DNA from: Xiphydria camelus | Lineage: Eukaryota; Arthropoda; Insecta; Hymenoptera; Xiphydriidae | Reading direction: 5' to 3' | Length of the DNA: 64,000 nt | Assembly: GCA_963678675.1 (NCBI GenBank) | Contig: OY783193.1 | Span: forward strand, 21,693,309-21,757,308 | In this document: positions 20,308 through 61,136 of the stretch, in pieces | Layout: each line of letters starts with the position of its first letter | How positions within the stretch are numbered: position 1 is the stretch's first letter | Position numbers and translations under genes: made by a program | Notes under the pieces: generated by a model | Told to the model about the DNA's origin: nothing | The model's input: the letters and a program-made list of their open reading frames with translations, nothing else | The model's database searches: none

Positions 20308-21636
20308 GTGTGCTACCTGGGACTGCACCAATTTGGGTTCAGGCCCGGACTCTCCACCTTGGACGCGATGTTTGTGGCCAGAGGCTTTGTTGAGCGGGCC
20401 GTCGCGGAAGGTGAGGTTGTAATGGCGGTTGCGATTGACATCCAAAACGCATTCAACTCCCTTCCGTGGAATAGCATTATAGCCCAAATGTGTGTGAGGC
20501 ATAAGGCTTTGCCTCGGTATCTGGTTACGATCATCCGCGACTATTTGCACGAGAGGACCGTCCGCTTCCGGGGAGAAGATGGGGAGATCCACACTCGGGA
20601 TGTCAAGGCTGGTGTTCTACAGGGCTCTGTTCTGGGGCCGCTACTGTGGAACATCGCCTATGACCATGTTCTGTGCGCGGACATTCTTCCTGGATGTAGA
20701 ATCGTGGCGTATGCAGACGATACCCTGGTTCTGGCGCGTGGCAGGAATCCCCGTATGGCCTCGCTGCTTGCGACGCGGCAGGTTGGTGCGGTGGTGTACC
20801 GAATAAAAGAATTAGGGTTAAAGATCACCCCCAAGAAGACTGTGGCGATGTTGTTCAGTGGTAGGAACTATGCTGATCGCTGAACCGTTTTTGTGGAAGG
20901 CGAACTCATATCCGCCAAGCATACTATGAGGTATCTAGGCGTGATATTTGACGGCGCACTTTCGTTTCGCCCTCACTTCGAGATGATCAAAGTGAAGGCC
21001 GAGAAAGTCGTGAGAGCTTTGTGGAGCCTCCTCCCGAATTTACGTGGACCTCGAGAACCGAAGATGTGATTGTATGCAAATGTAATACATTCTATTATAC
21101 TCTATGGTTCGCCGCTTTGGAGCTACAGACTTAGCGCTTTCACCAGCTATAGGGGGCCTCTTCTGGCGGTCCAACGCAGGATGGCCCTTAGGTTGATATG
21201 TGCATATCGCACGCTCTCTCTGGAGGCCATCCTGCCTCCAGCTAGCCTGCCAGGCTTCTAGCTAGGCTTCCTCCTATACACCTCTTGGCTGAGTGCCTCA
21301 GGAGGATTCACGAAAGAATTGTGGCCCAACGGAACGTAGACGAGGGGTTGCGGGCTAAAAAAGTCGACATTGTGAAGGCTGCTAAGGCGCTCACCAGGGT
21401 CAAATGGAGGATCCTGTTACAGGGTGCCAATCTCCCAGGAGGCAGGGTGCGTGATGCCGTCCTCCCGGTTTTCGAGAAATGGTTGGACCGGAAGCACGGT
21501 TCGCTGGGCTTCCATTTGGCCCAGCTTATGGGTGGGCATGGATGTTTTGGGGAGTTTCTCTTCCGAATTAATAAGGAGGAGTCTCCCCGGTGCCACCATT
21601 GTCCTGCGGAGTTCGACTCGGCTGAGCACACTCTAA
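20308..21636 (+). pseudogene. R1-like LINE reverse transcriptase, 5'-truncated, first part
   Basis: Starts within the RT (HQFGFRPGLSTLDAM), then AIDIQNAFNSLPW, GVLQGSVLGPLLWN and the active site VAYADDTLVL (YADD codons at 20710-20721). Stops occur at about 20881, 21066 and 21259, and frames shift afterwards. The region after RT includes the thumb and a CCHC-like stretch (CHHCPAEFDSAEHTL). R1-type LINEs insert by target-primed reverse transcription; the usual rDNA target is not seen here. The gene is then interrupted by element A. Confidence 0.85.
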
Positions 21637-21818
21637 CAAGGGGACCCTTCGAAAGTCGGAGCACCGACTGTAATGAATTTTTTTTTTATAAATAAAGGGA
21701 AGTCCCCTGAGTAACGCTCATACTTTACTTTTGTCCAATGCGCCTTTGTTTATTAAAAAAAAAGAAATTATTTTGACGCGTAAAGTGTGTACTGTAATGT
21801 AATACTCGGTATCCAAGA

Positions 21819-21908
21819 TAACGGCGTGGCGCAGTCGGCTAAGGCATAGACTTACCACGCGGGCGTCCCGCGTTCGATTCCCGTGCATGCACTATCTTTT
21901 TTTTTTTT
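21819..21908 (+). ncRNA. tRNA-like Pol III unit in the left TIR of element A
   Basis: GGCGTGGCGCAGTCGGCTAA is a good A box, and GCGTTCGATTCCC about 45 bases on is a good B box. A run of 12 T (21897-21908) follows directly, as in a Pol III terminator. The acceptor ends do not pair and the anticodon arm is irregular, so this is tRNA-derived rather than a working tRNA. Transcription would run into the element. Confidence 0.72.
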
Positions 21909-22063
21909 GCCAATTTCGAACTTTTTCACTTTTTTTATTATTCAAACTATTGCTACTAATCTTTAAAAGTAAAATAAATCTAGGTAAGGCGAAAAAACAA
22001 AATTTAAACACGTTCAATTACAAAAAGCATTTTCATTTATTCGTAACAAGTGAAATTTTAAAT

Positions 22064-24139
22064 TTAATTGGTATACTTATCGCTAATTCCATCGGACGAT
22101 TCCGATGGTGATTCTGGGGCCGACATCTTACATACTTTAGGATGATAAATATCATATAAACACTTAAAACACAAAATCTCTTTACACCAAGCACATTTCA
22201 TAAACGTTACAAAACCGCAGTTACATTTTTGTTTCAAATTGCTCAATGGGAAACAGACATCATTTATATTATTGAAAAAAGGTCTTTCTTCTATCAATTT
22301 AGACGCAAACCACGCATATTTAATCATCTCGGTGAATGCGGGCGCACTCAACTGATGATGAATAATTGAGTGGATCTTGATTGCGTCTTCTCAAGATGAC
22401 AGTTCTCGTTGTTCTTTTAATAAATCTGACGCATTCTGTAATCTCTTCACGAAATTCTTCACTTGTCGATAAAAGTATACGTCACATGGTTGACACAAAG
22501 GGGTACATTTAGGAGGAATAATTTTTAATGTGCAAGTAACTTCCCCATCACTGTTTGTGAACACGTCGTCATACAAAGTACTATCGGCTTGACCACTCCA
22601 CGAATCGACGAGCAAAACAAATTTATCTTCTTTAACATAAGGCTTCAACGTTGTCTCCAGAAATTTTCTGTATAAATGTGTAGTCAACTTACCTGATTTT
22701 GAGCAAGTAATTACAACATTTCCTAATTCTTTAGTAAGCTGTTCAACTTTTTTGGAAACTTGAGGACCAAAATTATTTGCAGGTTCTTGCAGACAGATAA
22801 AAACGTGGGGGAGCAATTTACCAGATGCAGTGACGCTGTACTGTGCTGTATACGAATGAGTGAGCTTCGATAAGTTTCGTTTTTTAACGAGAACCGTTTT
22901 CGCGCCTTTATAATCCAAACTCCTATTATATGCTGTATCATACTGACACCCGGTCTGGTCACTATTGATGATGAAGTCGGGATGATAGTTAGGCATCAGA
23001 AACCTCGTTGCCACTCTGAATCTTTCCGCTGCTTCCAAAGTTTCCTCCAAGGTCATGTCATTCTTACTGACGAATTTCGTGACTTTTCGTTGTCTTATTC
23101 CGTATTTTCTCTTGAAGTTCTAGACCCAGCAACTGCTTGCTCGAAATGTGAATTTCTCTGAAATGTACGGAAAAGAACTGGATGTAGCCCACTGTTGTAG
23201 ATCTCGTGTCATCACTTGCTCCAATCGGCTTCTCGTTTCTTCAAACCGTTCGAATGTTCCAGAGTTAATCATCCCTATTTTGTCATTCCTAGTGCCACTT
23301 TCCTGGACATCCTTTTTCCATTGAATTAGATAATCCTTCCTTTTCAGCCGTGTGCAACCATGAGCGTGCAGAGACTTCAAACTCCACTTGGGATGAGCCT
23401 GGGCGAGGGCCACAGCTTTGGCCTTGTACTCCAACGGGATGTAATCTTTCGAAGATGGTTCCTCGTCGTCATCAGGACTGTAATTCTGGCTGTAACCTGT
23501 ATCCATCGCTGGATCTGGACACTGCAAGAAGAAAATAAAAAAACACAAATCCAATGAAGTCATGAGAACATTTCCAGAGCAAAAAATACAAGATTACACA
23601 TTACAGAAACATACCTCTTCATATAGTTGCTCTTCATCTGGTTCTTCCGAAGTGATAAGGTCCTCGTCAACGATAAAATGGCCCGTAGTTATAATATCTT
23701 TTATTGTTTGAGCCAATTCCTTTGCCAAAACAATCTCTCGACTTGTGAATTTGTTTGGAGCCGAGGCATCCTTAATTTTCAATCCATCCTCCTCCAGAAT
23801 CTCTGACACAAGGAACCAAGAATTCGAGAAAGTTATTCTCATATCTTCCTCATACTTCAAGCACTCATTACTCATGGGCGATTCTTGACGTTCAGGTATT
23901 CCTGACTCGTTTTCCATTTTCCAAAATACCTTCCAAAGTGTACTAGGTGAACGTTGGAAGAAAACTGATGATAAGACCTCCATCACGTCGACTTTTAAGG
24001 CATTTTCGAACAAAGGGGGAAAATTTGGGAGTAGCTTCGTAGAATAATGAGTAACTGGTAATTGTAGGACATTTTCTAGGTTTCCAGACGAACAGCATAA
24101 TACCCCGCTGACAATAAGAAGGGTTAGAGTGTATAACAT
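22064..24139 (-). pseudogene. Element A transposase (pogo/Tigger-like, DDD), two stop codons
   Basis: Starts at 24139. Exon 1 (to about 23612) begins MLYTLTLLIVSGVLCCSSG, which looks like a secretion signal. A GTATGT donor and TTCTTCTTGCAG acceptor bound a short intron (to about 23536). Exon 2 has a DNA-binding region (LEYKAKAVALAQAHPKWSLK), then catalytic blocks IINSDQTG, LLVDSWSGQ and LCQPCDVYF. The tail has cysteine pairs (CNCG, CAWC, CFKC, then H and C) resembling a zinc-binding domain. In-frame TAG (about 23119) and TGA (about 22391) interrupt it; otherwise the frame is continuous. The end aligns with elements B and C. Confidence 0.83.
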
Positions 24140-24600
24140 AGCAATGAGTAATTGACCCTGGTGTTGACGTCACGAGTGAATTACCACCAAATTTAATGAA
24201 TGTTTCGTAGGAAAATGAGTAATTTGCACTTACCCGGCATTGACGTCATTTAATGTGAAACATAGAAATTGTTACCAAAATTTCACTAATTGCCTTCGAA
24301 TGACACTTACCTGGTGTTGACGTCACGAGTGAATTACCACCAAATTTAATGAATGTTTCGTAGGAAAATGAGTAATTTGCACTTACCCGGCATTGACGTC
24401 ATTTAATGTGAAGCATAGAAATTGTTACCAAAATTTCACTAATTGCCTTCGAATGACACTTACCTGGTGTTGACGTCACGAGTGAATTACCACCAAATTT
24501 AATGAATGTTTCGTAGGAAAATGAGTAATTTGCACTTACCCGGCATTAACGTCATTTAATGTGAAGCATAGAAATTGTCACCAAAACTTCACTAATTTGC
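24140..24600 (-). promoter_or_regulatory. Triplicated 153-bp block with CRE-like sites, upstream of the transposase
   Basis: Three tandem units of 153 bp. TGACGTCA occurs at 24165, 24241, 24318, 24394 and 24471, and a mutated TAACGTCA at 24547, so sites alternate at 76-77 bp spacing. TGACGTCA is the CREB/ATF consensus. The block begins within 30 bp of the transposase start codon, so a promoter or enhancer role is likely, by inference. It could also bind the transposase. Confidence 0.7.
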
Positions 24601-24744
24601 CTTCGAATGATTAGTAACAATCGTTCAAAATATAGTTTTAAATGCAAAAAAATTTTTTATTCACGTTACCTAGATTTATTTTACTTCTAAAGATTAGTAG
24701 CAATAGTTTGAATAATAAAAAAAGTGAAAAAGTTCGAAATTGGC

Positions 24745-24834
24745 AAAAAAAAAAAGATAGTGCATGCACGGGAATCGAACGCGGGACGCCCGCGTGGTAA
24801 GTCTATGTATGCCTTAGCCGACTGCGCCACGCCG
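24745..24834 (-). ncRNA. tRNA-like Pol III unit in the right TIR of element A
   Basis: Mirror of the left unit with the same A and B boxes and an A-run (T-run on its own strand) at 24745-24755. It has a 4-base insertion (CATA) between the boxes relative to the left copy. It also faces inward. Confidence 0.72.
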
Positions 24835-25022
24835 TTATCTTGGATACCGAGTATTACATTACAGTACACACTTTACGCGTCAAAACAATTTCTTTTTTTT
24901 TAAATAAACAAAAGCGCATTGGACAAAAGTAAAGTATGAGCGTTACTCAGGAGACTTCCCTTTATTTATAAAAAAAAATTCATTACAATCGGTGCTCCGA
25001 CTTTCGAAGGGTCCCCTTGTTA

Positions 25023-25225
25023 GTGAGTGTCCAGCGTGGGAAACAGAAAGGGCGGTGCTACGCACCAAGGTTGGGAATGCATTATCATGGGAGGCCCTGT
25101 TGCCTCTCATGATTGAATGCAAGGAAAAGTGGGCCTACGTTGCACATTTTGCAAAGGGAGTTCTAACTCGGAAGGAGGTTGCAGAGAGGGAAAGAGAGGC
25201 TAGGGGTCGCAACCGCTACCGCTAG
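25023..25225 (+). pseudogene. R1-like LINE ORF2, C-terminal end
   Basis: Resumes the R1-like protein after element A: a CPAWETERAVL segment, and a tail rich in charged residues (VAERERE) typical of R1-clade ORF2 ends. The stop is at 25223-25225. Frame and sense fit the break at 21636. Confidence 0.8.
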
Positions 25226-41401: not shown

Positions 41402-41913
41402 CAAGGAAACGTTTCGAGGCCGCCGCTTCCGATCTTGATGAAACTTCGTAAATTTAAAGTTTATCGAAAAATAAGAGACCCCTATTTTTTTTATAGCGGC
41501 CCAATTTTGGTTTAAGGGGGTGAAATGGACCCCTGAATTTTCACCCCCTTCGAGCTATCTCCGAAACGAAGCGAGATAGATGAAAACTTTCAATGTACGT
41601 TTTGTTTGGTTTTTTTAGTATAATAAAATCCCCTAAACAGATTTTGAAAAAAAGCATTATTTTTCAAAAAAAAAAAATTTTTTTATCTAATTTTTCGAAA
41701 TTTCGGTTTAGTCATGTGGACAAAAATTTAGGAAATTTTATTACAAATTCAACCATGTATGACATGATATATTTCCCTCCTACAGTTTTGCAAATTTCTA
41801 ACTTTTATGTCTGATAATGAGCGGGCTACCAATGGCAGTGACGGGATAGGTCGGGGGTTATTACTTCTATGTATTTTAATGCCACTTTTCTTTTATTTAA
41901 TAAAGTTCAACTT

Positions 41914-42264
41914 CTATGGCTCATAATTATGACAATAATGGTATTCCGTGAAAAAATGTTTTATACAAAGTTGTTTCTTACACCAAGCACACGTAATAAC
42001 GGCAATATCGCCACATATGTGGCATCGTGGTTCCGAATCCTGTGCAAAACAAAATTCTACAGGATGTTCAAATTCAGGAGGTCTCCTGAATATATATCCA
42101 CTCTTGAACCACGAATATTTAATAAAGTTAGTAAACCGTGGTGAAGAAAACTGATTATGAGTAAGAGATTGAAGTTTTAAAATATTATCTCTCGAATGAA
42201 GGTTAATATCGTAATTGAAAAGAGTTACAATATCTGAAAACCTCCTTACAAAATTCTTCCACAT
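41914..42264 (-). pseudogene. Inverted copy of the transposase C-terminus in the left TIR of element B
   Basis: 116 codons that match the last 116 codons of the element B transposase with one amino-acid difference (His for Asn). It includes the whole cysteine-rich tail. It exists because the TIR extends into the gene; on its own it lacks the catalytic core. Confidence 0.9.
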
Positions 42265-42428
42265 TCGAAAGCCGTATACGTCTAGCGGAATATTATCAAA
42301 ATAAAATGGACAAAAATTGTTCAGAAATCTTATTAATAAATCCGACCGTTAATTTATTTATATTATTTTCTGTTTGTGTGTAAGTAACTAATAATTCACT
42401 CACAGGTTAGATAAAATTGTCTGAATTT

Positions 42429-42770
42429 TTATAGTTTTTTGTTGGAATCATTTTTTTCTTTACTTTTCTTCTTCGCGTACTGTTTCCTCCAGTACTCCTC
42501 ACATTCTTGCAGCTCTCGTTCTACTTCGGCCATGGATGGTCCTGTTGTGCGGAATGTCAGATCCAGCGATTTCCCGGGAGACGGCAATGGTATGTGCCCA
42601 TTTTTAAGATCCTCCACGATCTTCTCAAAAGTCGGTAACTCGTTTGAACCCATCACTTGAATGATAGACGCAGCCAATGAAACTGAAGCTCTTTGTTTCT
42701 CGGCCCTGTATATATACTCCTCGAAAATGCCGTAAACAACATTCCTGTTATTTGTAGGGTTGCCTTATAT
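42429..42770 (-). other. Exon-like open frame inside element B, origin unknown
   Basis: The frame is open from about 42770, just after a TATAAG that could be an acceptor, to a stop at 42429. It includes VVYGIFEEYIYRAEKQRASV, LPTFEKIVEDLKNGHIPL and a basic end (KKKSKEKNDSNKK). It is not similar to the transposase and lies in opposite orientation. Composition is strongly protein-like. I infer either a second element gene or a captured host exon; I do not recognise the family. Confidence 0.5.
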
Positions 42771-43044
42771 GGCCCCGGTGATGCGAAAGAGGGAGTTTAG
42801 TTCTTTGGACAAGCTTTATTATTAGTTGGCTCTGTGCCCATGTAAAAATATTTTCGTACGCGCTCTCGAGTTTCGTACGCGGACTCCGAGGATGATGGCC
42901 CCTTTTTGGGAAGTCGGACCTCCCACCCTCTCCAGTCTGTTTCGTTCTTGTGAGGCGACTTCATTATATATAAGGAAGCGAAAGAGAAAGCTTTTTAGTC
43001 TGAATATTCAGTTTCTATGGTGCACAGCAGTTCATATTATTATT

Positions 43045-44658
43045 ATGGCAATTATAAATCCGATCAATGTGTTAACTTTATTGGTGGCCGTTTTCAGTGT
43101 ACCAAATGGAAGAGAAACTCCAATGAATAGTGCAGAAGTGCAATTGAAAGATTTATTACAAAATATTATTATACGTAGCATGGAGGATTCATCATTTCGA
43201 GTCGAACATGAAAATAAATTGGAATTGGAAGATTCAATCGAGGATAGTGAAATGCACGCTGTTAATACTGACTGGCTGGAATCGGATGTCGAGGATGTTC
43301 CTCACGTAGAAACCTCTATACCTCCAGAACCATATCCCTGTACACCCGATGAAGAAGCGGTTAGCTTTGAATATAAACAAAGTGCCATAGATTACTGGAA
43401 CAGTGGGAAGAAAAGACGTCGAACCGTAGCAGCAGTTCAACATCAGTTTAAAAAAGTGAAATCTGATAGACAATTACGAAGATGGGCTGCGCAAGTAGGA
43501 CAGGGGGGTACTCAAAATGATAAATTAATACGCATAGCGAAATATACTTTTGATAAATTTGTAGAAGCTAGTAGATCGAAAATAATAGTACATAATGTAG
43601 ACCTTAAACGATGGGCTTTACAAGCAAAAGAAGTAGAGAATCTTCCAACCTTCAAAGCAAGTCAAACATGGTTGAGGTCATTCAAGAAAGCATATAGAAT
43701 TGTCTCTCGAAAGATCACAAAGTTTGTAACGAGAAAAAACGTTGAGGGTGAGGAAAGTTTGAAAGTACGAAGCCATGCCTTCGTAGAACAAGTGAAGCCA
43801 CTCATTACACAATATGGACCACAAAATGTATTTAACTCTGATCAGAGTGGATTTAATTTAGAAATACATTCTGGCCGAACTTTAGCTACATCGGGGCAAA
43901 AAAAAATTGAAGCTGTGGTACAATCAATATCTTCTACAACCCACAGCTATACTATACAACCCACCATATCTGCTGATGGAAAACTACTGTCGCCTCTTTA
44001 TGTGGTATTAAAAGAGGCTAGTGGGCAATTGGGAGAACGAGTGCAACAAACCGTGTTTAGGCCGTCAAATGTATACTTCATGGCTTCCAAATCTGGGAAA
44101 CTTACAACCGATCTCATGAAAACATGGCTGCAAGAAGTTTACTTCCCTAACACTGGATCTACAAGCGTCTTACTGCTGGACTCTTGGAGTGGACAATGTG
44201 AGCGAAGTGTTCGAGAAGCTACACCAGAAGACAAGACAATAATATTAATGACGATTCCACAAGGCACCACCGGACTGATTCAACCGCTAGACGTATACGG
44301 ATTTCGAATGTGGAAGAATTTTGTAAGGAGGTTTTCAGATATTGTAACTCTTTTCAATTACGATATTAACCTTAATTCGAGAGATAATATTTTAAAACTT
44401 CAATCTCTTACTCATAATCAGTTTTCTTCACCACGGTTTACTAACTTTATTAAATATTCGTGGTTCAAGAGTGGATATATATTCAGGAGACCTCCTGAAT
44501 TTGAACATCCTGTAGAATTTTGTTTTGCACAGGACTCGGAACCACGATGCCACATATGTGGCGATATTGCCGTTATTACGTGTGCTTGGTGTAAGAAACA
44601 ACTTTGTATAAAACATTTTTTCACGGAATACCATTATTGTCATAATTATGAGCCATAG
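43045..44658 (+). CDS. Element B transposase (pogo/Tigger-like, DDD), apparently intact
   Basis: The open frame starts at 42826, but I prefer the ATG at 43045: it gives MAIINPINVLTLLVAVFSV, a hydrophobic start like that of element A. A helix-turn-helix and CENP-B-like DNA-binding region follows (VAAVQHQFKK, DRQLRRWAAQVG, FKASQTWLRSFKKAY). Catalytic blocks are FNSDQSG, LLLDSWSGQ and LIQPLDVYG: Asp codons at 43840, 44179 and 44290, with 36 residues between the last two. The tail (44549-44640) has CHICG, CAWC, CIKH and HYC, a probable zinc-binding module. No stop or shift, so it may be functional. It would cut the element at the CAAGG ends and insert at TTA. Confidence 0.88.
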   Translation: MAIINPINVLTLLVAVFSVPNGRETPMNSAEVQLKDLLQNIIIRSMEDSSFRVEHENKLELEDSIEDSEMHAVNTDWLESDVEDVPHVETSIPPEPYPCTPDEEAVSFEYKQSAIDYWNSGKKRRRTVAAVQHQFKKVKSDRQLRRWAAQVGQGGTQNDKLIRIAKYTFDKFVEASRSKIIVHNVDLKRWALQAKEVENLPTFKASQTWLRSFKKAYRIVSRKITKFVTRKNVEGEESLKVRSHAFVEQVKPLITQYGPQNVFNSDQSGFNLEIHSGRTLATSGQKKIEAVVQSISSTTHSYTIQPTISADGKLLSPLYVVLKEASGQLGERVQQTVFRPSNVYFMASKSGKLTTDLMKTWLQEVYFPNTGSTSVLLLDSWSGQCERSVREATPEDKTIILMTIPQGTTGLIQPLDVYGFRMWKNFVRRFSDIVTLFNYDINLNSRDNILKLQSLTHNQFSSPRFTNFIKYSWFKSGYIFRRPPEFEHPVEFCFAQDSEPRCHICGDIAVITCAWCKKQLCIKHFFTEYHYCHNYEP

Positions 44659-45172
44659 AAGTTGAACTTTATTAAATAAAAGAAAAGTGGCATTAAAATA
44701 CATAGAAGTAATAACCCCCGACCTATCCCGTCACTGCCATTGGTAGCCCGTTCATTATCAGACATAAAAGTTAGAAATTTGCAAAACTGTAGGAGGGAAA
44801 TATATCATGTCATACATGGTTGAATTTGTAATAAAATTTCCTAAATTTTTGTCCACATGACTAAACCGAAATTTCGAAAAATTAGATAAAAAAATTTTTT
44901 TTTTTTTTTAAATAATGCTTTTTTTCAAAATCTGTTTAGGGGATTTTATTATACTAAAAAGACCAAACAAAACGTACATTGAAAGTTTTCATCTATCTCG
45001 CTTCGTTTCGGAGATAGCTCGAAGGGGGTGAAAATTCAGGGGTCCATTTCACCCCCTTAAACCAAAATTGGGCCGCTATAAAAAAATAGGGGTCTCTTAT
45101 TTTTCGATAAACTTTAAATGTACGAAGTTTCATCAAGATCGGAAGCGGCGGCCGCGAAACGTTTCCTTGTTA

Positions 45173-58490: not shown

Positions 58491-58794
58491 TCGCCTTCGA
58501 CTTCTTCTACCCCGTGAGGATTTCTCACGGACCAATAGTGGGCGTTGTGATTCACTAATCCTTTGTTGCAGAATTTCGATTCATCTGTGAACAAAATCTT
58601 CTGACGAACGAGGGATCGTCCACTTGCCGTTCCAAAAATCAGTCGGAATAGTTCATTCGTCGAGCTGGATCTAGCTAATTGTACGCTGAAACATGCCCAA
58701 GTCGTATTCAGCCTTGAGAAGATTTATTTTAATATTGGACCAAAGGAACGGCAATCCTGTTGCTTCAACTTCCAGGTATATTAATTGTAAGTAT
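58491..58794. other. Possible Tc1 transposase fragment (minus strand)
   Basis: 58540-58660 on the minus strand reads like a Tc1-type block around a WTDESKF-like phrase (complement of AATTTCGATTCATCTGTGAACA), with frame breaks. Weak support. Confidence 0.35.
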
Positions 58795-59475
58795 TACTGG
58801 AGAACGAGTAGGTTAAAAGATTTTCGTGAAGACTCACGATTTTCTGATATGTCATTTCGTACAGGTGCAACCGAAGAGGATCTAGCTCGTGTCCTGTCCG
58901 TAAAAAGATGACTCGATGGACATTGGAGAATGTCAGGCTTGTCACCGAGCGCCTATTACCCAAGTTACATTAATTGCAATACGCGCTTCTCGTTTCATTC
59001 AACTATTCCAGCGTTAAATAACTTTTACTTCTTTCAAGGTAATCACCTTTTATGAACTGTTCGTGGTAGGAGGCAGCGATCGATAAGAGAGACTCGTCGT
59101 AGACAAGTTCGTCTATTAAAACTAAAAGGCAATTGGTGTACAACTGGAACATCATCGCAGGAATAATTTGTCTACGATTAGTCACAATCATTGATCGTTG
59201 CCCCCTACGATCAACAATTCGTACAAGGTAAATGCTTTGAAAGAAGTAAAAGTTACTTAAAGCAGGAATAGTTGAAACGAAAATCGCATATTGCAATGAA
59301 AATACTATGGGTGAAAGGCGCTCGGTGACAAGCCTAACATTCTCCGATCCATCGAGTCATCTTTTTACGGACAGGACATGAGCTAGATCCTCTTCGGTTG
59401 CACCTGTACGAGATGACATGTCAGAAAATCGTGAGTTCATGAAAATCTTCTAACCTACTCGTTCTGCAATAATAC
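58795..59475. mobile_element. Foldback element, about 680 bp
   Basis: Arms 58795-59050 and 59215-59475, with GAACGAGTAGGTTA, GCAACCGAAGAGGATCTAGC and GTCACCGAGCGCC mirrored. One arm also matches 34130-34340. Confidence 0.83.
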
Positions 59476-59557
59476 CTCTAAAAAAAGAGAAAAAATCACC
59501 TCTAAAGTTGAGCTCTTGTAAGTATTTGTACAAGTTCTCAACAACGAGTTTCCAAGA

Positions 59558-59641
59558 GGCGGCGTGGCCGAGCGGTTAAAGCGCCAGTCTACTAACTCGG
59601 GGATCGCGTGTTCGAGGCTTCTCATGTGCTTCTTTTTTTTT
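59558..59641 (+). ncRNA. tRNA-like Pol III unit in the left TIR of element C
   Basis: GGCGTGGCCGAGCGGTTAAA is a Ser/Leu-type A box and GTGTTCGAGGCTTC a B box, followed by a run of 9 T. The sequence does not fold into a complete tRNA, so I treat it as tRNA-derived. Different from the unit in element A. Confidence 0.7.
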
Positions 59642-59776
59642 GCAAATAAAAATGTTCATTTAATCATAATTTGATAACAATCAACGTTACTAATCAATAT
59701 TTTTTTTAATTTCAATTATATTTTAATTCTGGGAGCTGTGTTGAAAAAAATTAAAATTGTAGAAAAATAGCAGTTA

Positions 59777-59949
59777 TTATTCGCTTTCGGTGAGCTCAGG
59801 CTTACAATTTGTGGGATGATAATTGTCATAAAAGCACTCAAAACATAAATTAAGTTGACAATGACTACAGGAGATAAAACCGGTATTGCTGCAAGCGCAG
59901 GGAGTCTTCAATTTATTTAAAGGAAAGCATACTTCATTCACGTTGGAAA
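59777..59949 (-). pseudogene. Transposase C-terminal zinc-binding tail in element C
   Basis: Reads NVNEVCFPLNKLKTPCACSN, then CSHCQLNLCFECFYD, HPTNC and a stop at 59777-59779. It has the same cysteine spacing as the tail of element A (VCFPLSNLKQKCNCG, CAWC, CFKC, HPKVC). This ties element C to the family although catalytic sequences are deleted. Confidence 0.8.
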
Positions 59950-60005
59950 AAAAATATTATTTAATAACGTTGATTGTTATCAAATTATGATTAAATGAAC
60001 ATTTT

Positions 60006-60955
60006 ATTTGCAAAAAAAAAGAAGCACATGAGGAGTCTCGAACACGCGATCCCCGAGTTAGTAGACTAGCGCTTTAAGGTCAAAGCACATCTAGGCGAAG
60101 CGAAGCGACGCGCCGCAAAGCGCGGCTGTGCAACGCACACTTGGGCGAAGCGAAGCGACGCGAAGCGAAACGCGGCGAAGCGAAGCGCGGCGAAGCGAAG
60201 CGCGGCGAAGAGAAGCGCGGCGAATTCTATCCCCTTCTCTACCAGGTATAAACAGCTATACCTGAAAATATCCATATATGGATACCCGGGTAGAGAAGGG
60301 AGAGAAGGGAAGCGCCGTGAAATGTCAGTCATTTTCGCCTTTTTCGCCTTTTTCATTCATTTTCGCCTTTTTCAAACTGATGAACGCAACGTGAAATGAG
60401 CCGTGTACATGTTTTGTTTTGAGAAATGGGCATTCGTGAGGAAAAATAGTATATATCATTCGGCGGAAATCCTCGGATTTTTAAGACTGTGTTTATATAG
60501 ATCGTAGCCTCCTCCCCAAACCATGCCTCGTGTTACTATCTAATTAAACACAGTCTGAAAAAATCTCGAATTTCCGCCTTATGATATAAGATACTATTTC
60601 GTGTGAGAAAATTCATTTCGTTGACGAGATCTATCTTGGAAAGGATTTTCGAATCGTTAACGGAAGTGATCGACGAAACTTTACATCCGTTAACGAATTA
60701 CATTCCGTCCACGATAAACATTTCTCGCGGCGCTTCGCTTCGCGGCGCTTCGGTTCGCCGCGCTTCGCTTCGCCGCGCTTCGCTTCGCTCAAGTGTGCGT
60801 TACCTCGTAAGAATCAATGGAAATATAAAAGGTAGCTTCGCTTCGCGGCGCGTCGCTTCGCTGCGCTTCCAGTCGCACAAGTGTGCTTATCCTAGGTCGC
60901 GGCGCTTCGCTTCGCCTAGATGTGCTTTGGCCTTTAACCGCTCGGCCACGCCGCC
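60006..60955 (-). ncRNA. tRNA-like unit in the right TIR of element C, split by element D
   Basis: Mirror of the left unit. The B-box half is at 60006-60077 and the A-box half at 60932-60955, on either side of element D. The B box here (GTTCGAGACTCC) is closer to consensus than the left one. Confidence 0.68.
60078..60931. mobile_element. Element D: transposon with GCGAAGCGAAGCG subterminal repeats
   Basis: TTTAA at 60073-60077 and 60932-60936. The ends GGTCAAAGCACATCTAGGCG and CGCCTAGATGTGCTTTGGCC are mirrored. Next to each end are many 5-10 bp units of CGAAG/GCG. The middle is not repetitive and has no recognised gene. The target fits TTAA or a 5-bp duplication. Confidence 0.87.
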
Positions 60956-61136
60956 TCTTGGAAATTCGTTGTTGAGAACTTGTACAAATACTTACAAGCT
61001 CAACTTTAGAGGTGATTTTTTCTCTTCTTTTTGAGTGTTGCACCCTAGGGTTGTGGTGATGTACTATACTAGTGGTGCTCTATAAATGAGTAAAGATTCG
61101 GCCAAATCGGTGACCCGAAAGCCTGAGCCTCTCTTG

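Follow-up and report, generated by a model that had tools for sequence, protein, structure and literature searches.

Transfer-RNA-like promoter units in the terminal inverted repeats of a Tc4/Tc5-like DNA transposon and its relatives in Xiphydria camelus

Element A and the units in its ends

The stretch of Xiphydria camelus DNA analysed here, referred to as the window, is 64,000 nucleotides long (contig OY783193.1, positions 21,693,309 to 21,757,308, with positions below counted from its first letter) and contains a DNA transposon, element A, whose two terminal inverted repeats (TIRs) each very probably hold a unit like the RNA polymerase III (Pol III) promoter of a transfer RNA (tRNA) gene. 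Element A spans 21637-25019 (3383 bp), limits that follow from its ends and flanks, and its sequence identifies it as a Tc4/Tc5-like DNA transposon with a DDE transposase, long TIRs and a TNA target duplication. It starts with CAAGGGG at 21637 and finishes with CCCCTTG at 25019 (termini CAAGGGGACCC...GGGTCCCCTTG). Alignment of one TIR with the other placed them at 21637-22005 (plus strand) and 24650-25019 (minus strand), about 370 bp each, and with a few flanking bases included (21621-22005 against 24650-25035) they are 94.6% identical over 390 columns. The target-site flanks were read as TAA on the left (21634-21636) and TTA on the right (25020-25022), an imperfect duplication; the five other family-A copies that were read at both ends (L002, L003, L006, L008 and L069) all have a perfect TAA or TTA duplication, CTNAG contexts and differing surroundings. 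TAA or TTA flanks both sides in five of the six copies read at both ends, and likewise in one copy of the related family C and in a second element of the window, element B. The insertion interrupts the end of the reverse-transcriptase gene of a retrotransposon without long terminal repeats (non-LTR), and the empty site, when reconstructed with a single 3-bp flank (..AEHTLSECPAWE..), is in frame, whereas with 2 bp it is out of frame.

The transposase gene lies between the TIRs on the minus strand. Its first exon is predicted at 23615-24139 from an open reading frame with a first ATG at 24139-24137 and a splice-like GAAGAG/GTATGT junction, followed by a predicted intron read from the sequence (23522-23614, GTATGT...TTGCAG) and by exon 2 (22064-23521), in which open reading frames and domain matches reveal the DDE_1 region and a putative Tc5-type C-terminus. 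In the window copy exon 2 is interrupted by two in-frame stops (23122-23120 and 22393-22391); stop-free frames of 499-521 amino acids occur in 14 of the 22 best genome matches to the catalytic part, which points to activity in the recent past. An unbroken exon-2 frame of the family scored 40.2 bits with PF03184 (DDE_1, cut-off 22; 36 bits for the fragment in the window copy), and 18.4 and 17.3 bits with PF04236 and PF03221, both under the Pfam cut-offs of 27.4 and 22.2; PF04236 does appear in the precomputed annotation of relatives, e.g., P0122. Between exon 1 and the right TIR, a repeat search found three tandem copies of a 153-bp repeat (24157-24615, plus strand), which adjoin the 5′ end of the transposase and might be promoter or binding sites.

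Both units were detected by a strict scan for an A box, a B box and a T-run, and also by a matrix built from host tRNA genes. The left one (21818-21908, plus strand) has its A box at 21827-21838 (TGGCGCAGTCGG), its B box at 21871-21881 (CGTTCGATTCC) and 12 T at 21897-21908, and the right one (24745-24838, minus strand) has its A box at 24829-24818, its B box at 24781-24771 and 11 T at 24755-24745. They differ solely by the length of the T-run and by an extra 4-nt repeat (CATA) in the right unit, the gap between the boxes being 34 nt on the left and 38 nt on the right. A preliminary description of this DNA had placed such inward-facing units at 21819-21908 and 24745-24834, and these intervals proved accurate; the boxes and T-runs are indeed present in both TIRs, and shuffled sequences rarely or never match them. 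Three strict sites were found in the window against 0.067 per shuffled window (60 shuffles, maximum 2), the third of them, at 59565, being also within a Tc5-like element, element C. Using a relaxed consensus, none of 500 shuffles equalled the score of either TIR, and using the host tRNA matrix none of 300 shuffles and none of 53 control flanks scored as high as the left unit. Element A shows the complete anatomy of a type-2 promoter (A box, B box, tRNA spacing and T-run terminator), and judged by anatomy alone there is little doubt that each TIR holds an inward-pointing promoter-like unit of the tRNA type; in families E and F, described below, the anatomy is weaker by consensus counting.

Within the 357-Mb host genome, the left TIR has at least 40 copies that are 97-100% identical (the best 40 of 325 candidates, the window's own included). 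Sixteen distinct family-A TIRs were compared, leaving out the window's own locus (L001), and 13 of them matched the strict A/B consensus, the misses being one TIR each of L003, L069 and L105, the last TIR being 89% identical. Five internally deleted copies (1.0-1.8 kb) retain both TIRs; three of them have a strict unit in each TIR and the other two in one.

Units in related families

The catalytic fragment of element A was used to search the host genome, and among the best 150 of 924 candidates the groups that followed A scored at about 73-75%, 56-58%, 51-57%, 46% and 42%, with the family of element B at 37-38%. Five relatives with 50-71% protein identity, A2, C, D, E and F, have a unit in the same place; together with the 13 TIRs of family A they remove the doubt, raised in the preliminary description, that other copies might lack it. 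Scanning and reading of the 3′ flanks of 16 transposase copies revealed a recognisable unit in 11, namely L105 (A), L090 and L091 (A2), L093-L095 (C), L096-L098 (D), L099 (E) and L103 (F), the A-box start being replaced by an insertion in L096. The five flanks without a unit belong to three A2 copies with altered 3′ ends (L092, L102 and L104) and to two further families, G (L100) and H (L101), where no TIR was recognised and no unit was seen. The strict scan alone finds only the units of L093-L095 in these 16 flanks; it also picks up a tRNA-like repeat in L092 that is unrelated to them.

Both ends of one element carry the unit, at least partly and sometimes broken by insertions, in A, A2, C, D and F; for E, one end only was examined. 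The pairs from a single element are L093 with L108 in family C (97.3% over 295 bp), L096 with L111 in D (96% over 153 bp), also in D L097 with L110, which has half a unit, L091 with L112 in A2, the latter retaining the B-box half and the T-run, and L103 with L171 in F. Two more A2 ends have the unit, the 5′ end L115, where about 160 bp of inserted sequence divide it, and the 3′ end L117. No TIR was seen in the stretches L107, L114 and L116, L113 ends before the unit and L109 inside it, and no clear unit was found in L118 and L119, which lie beside fragments at 52 and 54%; a weak A box and B box that lie at the edge of L118, beside the 52% relative, were not counted as a unit.

The position of the unit varies little. 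From the terminus to the start of the A box there are 190 nt in A, 198 in A2, 191 in C and 196 in E, with the terminus of E placed by eye at CACAGGGAGAGG; in F the distance is 188 nt in a consensus of 15 TIRs and 209 in the single copy L103, and for D no terminus was found. The terminus CAAGG is common to A, A2, B, C and F. In all six families the distance from the A box to the TTCG is 45-46 nt (taking the left TIR for A), and the six aligned units are all followed by a T-run.

As controls, 53 flanks were used, made up of 50 Tc5_C loci of the neighbouring clade, which cover the 3′ side of the transposase with termini mostly not delimited, together with element B, G and H. A strict scan of both strands of the neighbouring loci found a unit in 0 of 30 and then in 0 of 20 more (five families by clustering, B's included). 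Profiles built while leaving out one family at a time gave scores of 18.0 for A, 18.1 for A2, 17.0 for C, 12.6 for F and 10.1 for D, where the match covers the unit minus its first 10 positions; no control flank of the 53 exceeded 3.4, and none of 200 shuffles reached the score of any family, E included. Matrices built from 34 host tRNA genes (34 of 62 matches) scored 22.8 for A, 26.0 for A2, 13.9 for C, 16.0 for D, 8.3 for E and 8.7 for F against -3.7 for the best control, and were equalled by 0 of 300 shuffles for the six families and by a single one of 300 in each of the additional copies L094 (C) and L098 (D); in D the A box of the best pair sits 10 nt upstream of the aligned one. In plain consensus counting, shuffles matched A and D in 0 of 500 cases, C in 9 and 16, and A2 in 17 and 18. 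By such counting the units of E and F, and the score of A2 and C when compared with element B, are indistinguishable from chance, but the tRNA matrix and the leave-one-out profile do separate them.

Zone by zone alignments were made for six of the ten possible pairs among the families with defined ends. The unit is more alike than the TIR between terminus and unit in A-C (65 against 43%), A-A2 (68 against 51%), A-F (64 against 48%), A-E (54 against 42%) and A2-C (56 against 37%); part of this similarity may reflect a common tRNA character rather than descent. The unit of A is nearest to a tRNA read as Gly-GCC, which agrees at 53 of 69 positions and scores 51.5 against 29.5 for the next isotype, and that of C to two tRNAs read as Thr-AGT, with 53 of 73 positions and 55.5 against 35.5, the anticodon labels being our own reading and the tRNA set lacking some isotypes; for A2, Gly is nearest in two of three copies by a small margin. 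From these comparisons, there is about an even chance that two different tRNA origins, Gly-like in A and Thr-like in C, occupy one TIR position, which hints at renewal from different tRNA genes.

A genuine tRNA gene in the TIRs was considered and rejected. ARAGORN found no tRNA in the 64-kb window, Rfam found none in element A even at an E-value of 5 nor in ten unit-bearing loci, and all five units that were tried, none of them from F, folded no better than shuffles (z from -0.21 to 0.62). The boxes are kept and the tRNA structure is not. When the units were scored as tRNAs, as had been suggested at the outset, the outcome was therefore divided, with the host tRNA matrix placing them above controls and shuffles and the two tRNA finders calling none.

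In a FastTree tree of the transposase catalytic region, a separate group is formed by element B, three other Tc5 families and three proteins from bees and sawflies (support 1.000; 0.987 with a scorpion protein). On the side of A, families C and E are sisters (0.999), A groups with A2 (0.936), D is placed with proteins of a beetle (0.877) and spider (0.507) kind, and F is close to ant proteins, though with hardly any support; G and H likewise lie on this side, and the unit-bearing families are spread across it. Protein relatives of A were found in ants, sawflies, bees, spiders, beetles and locusts (the best 120 of 169). A pattern search of viral contigs for the unit and the TIR end gave no match, and no relative was found when viral and genome contig collections were searched with an alignment of A-clade transposases.

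Elements B and C and other features

Element B (41402-45169) is Tc5-like and belongs to the neighbouring clade by domain match and by the tree, and its TIRs have no strict unit. It ends in CAAGG, has a TTA duplication and contains an open transposase frame of the Tc5 type of 610 amino acids, the last 144 codons of which are nearly repeated in inverted orientation on the left side (41914-42348; 125 of 144 residues equal). Element C (59476-61136) is a relative of the non-autonomous kind, with a TIR sequence of its own; its left terminus is missing and its right end (..CTCTCTTG) stands directly before TTA. The strict scan placed its left unit at 59556-59641 (plus strand), with the A box at 59565-59576, the B box at 59609-59619 and the T-run at 59633-59641. 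Its right unit, read from the sequence on the minus strand, is in two parts, the B-box half with the T-run at 60002-60077 and the A-box half at 60933-60956, interrupted at TTTAA by a GC-rich insertion (60078-60932). This insertion is a repeat with the ends GGTCAAAGCACATCTAGGCG and has TTTAA on both sides. The copies of element C (30 of the best 40 matches were compared) were rejected as a sample of many independent insertions: set beside the reference, all 29 others have about 430 bp of left flank in common with it, and in 26 of the 29 the agreement includes the right flank. They are thus for the most part duplicates of a composite repeat, and family C was judged by the transposase-bearing L093-L095. 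Beside the left side of element C lies a palindromic fold-back repeat (58791-59475), whose inner part belongs to a composite repeat that is present in many near-identical copies.

Three further observations concern the relatives of A. The same non-LTR retrotransposon is found at the A-box start of the unit in two D elements (up to about 601 on the unit strand of L096 and about 950 in L110), at the same position and with different 3′ tails, possibly reflecting a target preference for tRNA-like sites. Relative G (L100/L129, G000:C6:33677421-33679228; 46% to A) has an open frame of 557 amino acids in GC-rich surroundings with no TIR seen, and may be a domesticated transposase. A tRNA-headed repeat (AGTAGCCGAGTGGTC...), probably a short interspersed element (SINE), occurs near or inside A-type elements, at about 887-960 in L069 and about 100-180 on the unit strand of L092.

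A proposed boundary role and its rivals

The unit-bearing elements combine features of several known systems. Tc4 and Tc5 of Caenorhabditis elegans, on the pogo side of IS630-Tc1-mariner, are transposons with CTNAG targets and a TNA duplication, and element A resembles them in its DDE_1 domain, its putative Tc5-type N- and C-terminal regions (in A, domain matches under the Pfam cut-offs), its long TIRs and its TNA duplication; it differs in having Pol III-type units in its ends, which those of Tc4 and Tc5 are not known to contain. Element B and the other Tc5-like host families share the superfamily and the Tc5_C domain with A, but form a separate clade without a strict unit. The tRNA-derived SINEs resemble the units in having A and B boxes spaced as in a tRNA, with a T-run after them, and in a degenerate tRNA body, whereas the units occur twice, inverted, inside the TIRs of a DNA transposon and without a tail or any hallmark of reverse transcription. 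Such units at transposon ends are unexpected for DNA transposons; in the accessible portions of the open-access literature, a body distinct from subscription papers and Repbase reports, none was reported in TIRs, and the available parts of PMC1192797, PMC4592977 and PMC6829131 do not treat them.

We propose, with a confidence that stops a little short of an even chance for the statement as a whole, that TIRs of the Tc4/Tc5-like elements of the A clade commonly hold a tRNA-derived type-2 Pol III promoter about 190 nt inside, and that this promoter serves as a boundary bound by TFIIIC. It is well known that tRNA genes and TFIIIC sites act as insulators in yeast and animals; here the proposed boundaries would be part of the ends of a mobile element and not host loci. 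TFIIIC, with or without Pol III, would bind both units, which would act like tRNA-gene insulators: either end would have a patch poor in nucleosomes and would stay open to the transposase, and the transposase gene in the middle would be protected from the silencing that affects the repeats around it. The short transcript, about 85-95 nt by the layout and ended by the T-run inside the TIR, would be a by-product, and the promoter would be retained, perhaps renewed from different tRNA genes, since the binding site would matter rather than the RNA. Since it is the boxes, their spacing and the terminator that are retained, and not the fold or the sequence of the RNA, selection, if any, would act on promoter binding. 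There is a stronger form of this proposal, in which paired boundary promoters are clade-wide and, upon decay, are replaced at one and the same place in the TIR by promoters of other tRNA genes (Gly, Thr and others); we regard it as doubtful. If it holds, no cut-and-paste transposons were known before these to have paired TFIIIC insulators of their own.

Several observations weigh against the boundary proposal. The families were recognised through their units before these were tested, which means that the tests address whether the units are real and not how frequent they are; G and H lie on the A side of the tree without a unit, making the tally by family six of eight, and the unit region is lost in the three A2 copies mentioned above. 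Family E scored lowest, at 4.0, in the leave-one-family-out test, and in plain consensus counting A2 and C are equalled by 9-18 of 500 shuffles and also by element B (16 of 500 shuffles), and the best site in E and F lies elsewhere than the unit. The identity with a single tRNA is clear only in A and C, with no one isotype standing out for D, E and F, and host tRNAs of different isotypes score among themselves with a mean of 20, a standard deviation of 16.8 and a maximum of 83. In the sister families C and E the unit is less alike (55%) than the adjoining TIR (67%), which speaks against simple inheritance in these two and fits exchange. Finally, the boxes had been expected to be conserved above their surroundings, and this failed within both families in which it was followed, where the decay looks neutral: in A, changes from the consensus affect 5 of 368 positions in the A and B boxes, 9 of 811 other unit positions and 42 of 3771 positions in the rest, so that copies of this family appear to decay evenly after insertion, and in F (15 TIR alignments kept, ten short ones dropped) they affect 10 of 254 fixed box positions and 80 of 1800 other TIR positions. 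The terminal 30 bp of F, expectedly needed for transposition, change equally fast (20 of 403), which indicates that the comparison reflects changes acquired once a copy had inserted and is of low power; the even decay in F neither supports nor excludes a boundary role.

The alternatives differ in what they would make of the unit. It is rather unlikely that the RNA itself matters, each unit yielding a Pol III transcript of about 85-95 nt that regulates the element as a small-RNA decoy or guide or as an antisense RNA near the 3′ end of the transposase; the T-run after each of the six aligned units and the orientation of the left unit of A, which points at the 3′ end of the transposase on the opposite strand, are in line with it, but the putative RNA varies between families and in none of the five tried does it fold better than shuffles, which argues that no shared RNA is kept, and with the T-run inside the TIR it would stop short of the gene. 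We consider similarly improbable a passive inheritance, in which a tRNA gene entered one ancestral TIR, was copied to the other end and has been carried since without use. This would agree with the decay of the boxes at the pace of their surroundings, with the existence of an A2 copy whose unit region is deleted (L102) and with the lack of a visible unit in G and H; it is harder to reconcile with boxes, spacing and T-run that persist between families at 50-71% transposase identity while the TIR from terminus to unit is only 37-51% identical in five of the six family pairs tried (the exception being C-E, at 67%), and a relic would not be expected to stand above all controls in six families.

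Less probable again is a role of the unit as a cis sequence for transposition, through binding of transposase or a host factor or through fork pausing, with Pol III irrelevant. The near-constant distance from the terminus would suit such a role, as would the five internally deleted family-A copies that retain both TIRs with a strict unit at one or both ends; beyond the tRNA-like positions, however, the families have little in common, and the neighbouring clade needs no unit. Fragments of F without a unit were considered as a sign that the unit is dispensable, and this was rejected: all five (L175-L179) have the same outer flank, showing them to be copies of one larger repeat and not separate jumps, so that they help neither way. 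The insertion of a tRNA-derived SINE into the TIR of the window copy or of its recent ancestor, a possibility that the preliminary description had itself raised, can be set aside as extremely improbable: other tRNA-headed repeats do exist in the host genome, e.g., in L069 and L092, but the unit occupies the same TIR position in six families, at both ends where these were read, and no body, tail or target duplication of its own was seen around it.

DNA transposons must keep their gene expressed and their ends accessible within chromatin that the host tries to silence, and the units may help these transposons to stay in open chromatin. In the stronger form of the boundary proposal, the clade that uses such promoters would include the protein relatives in ants, sawflies, bees, spiders, beetles and locusts. 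The use of such promoters by a clade would further point to a way in which tRNA-derived promoters spread through genomes independently of SINEs, and would offer an annotation mark for elements of this kind. If the clade does use TFIIIC sites at both ends, it would provide a natural, replicated experiment on tRNA-type insulators, set in one genome with six unit-bearing families, five neighbouring families without the unit, and many young copies at different sites.

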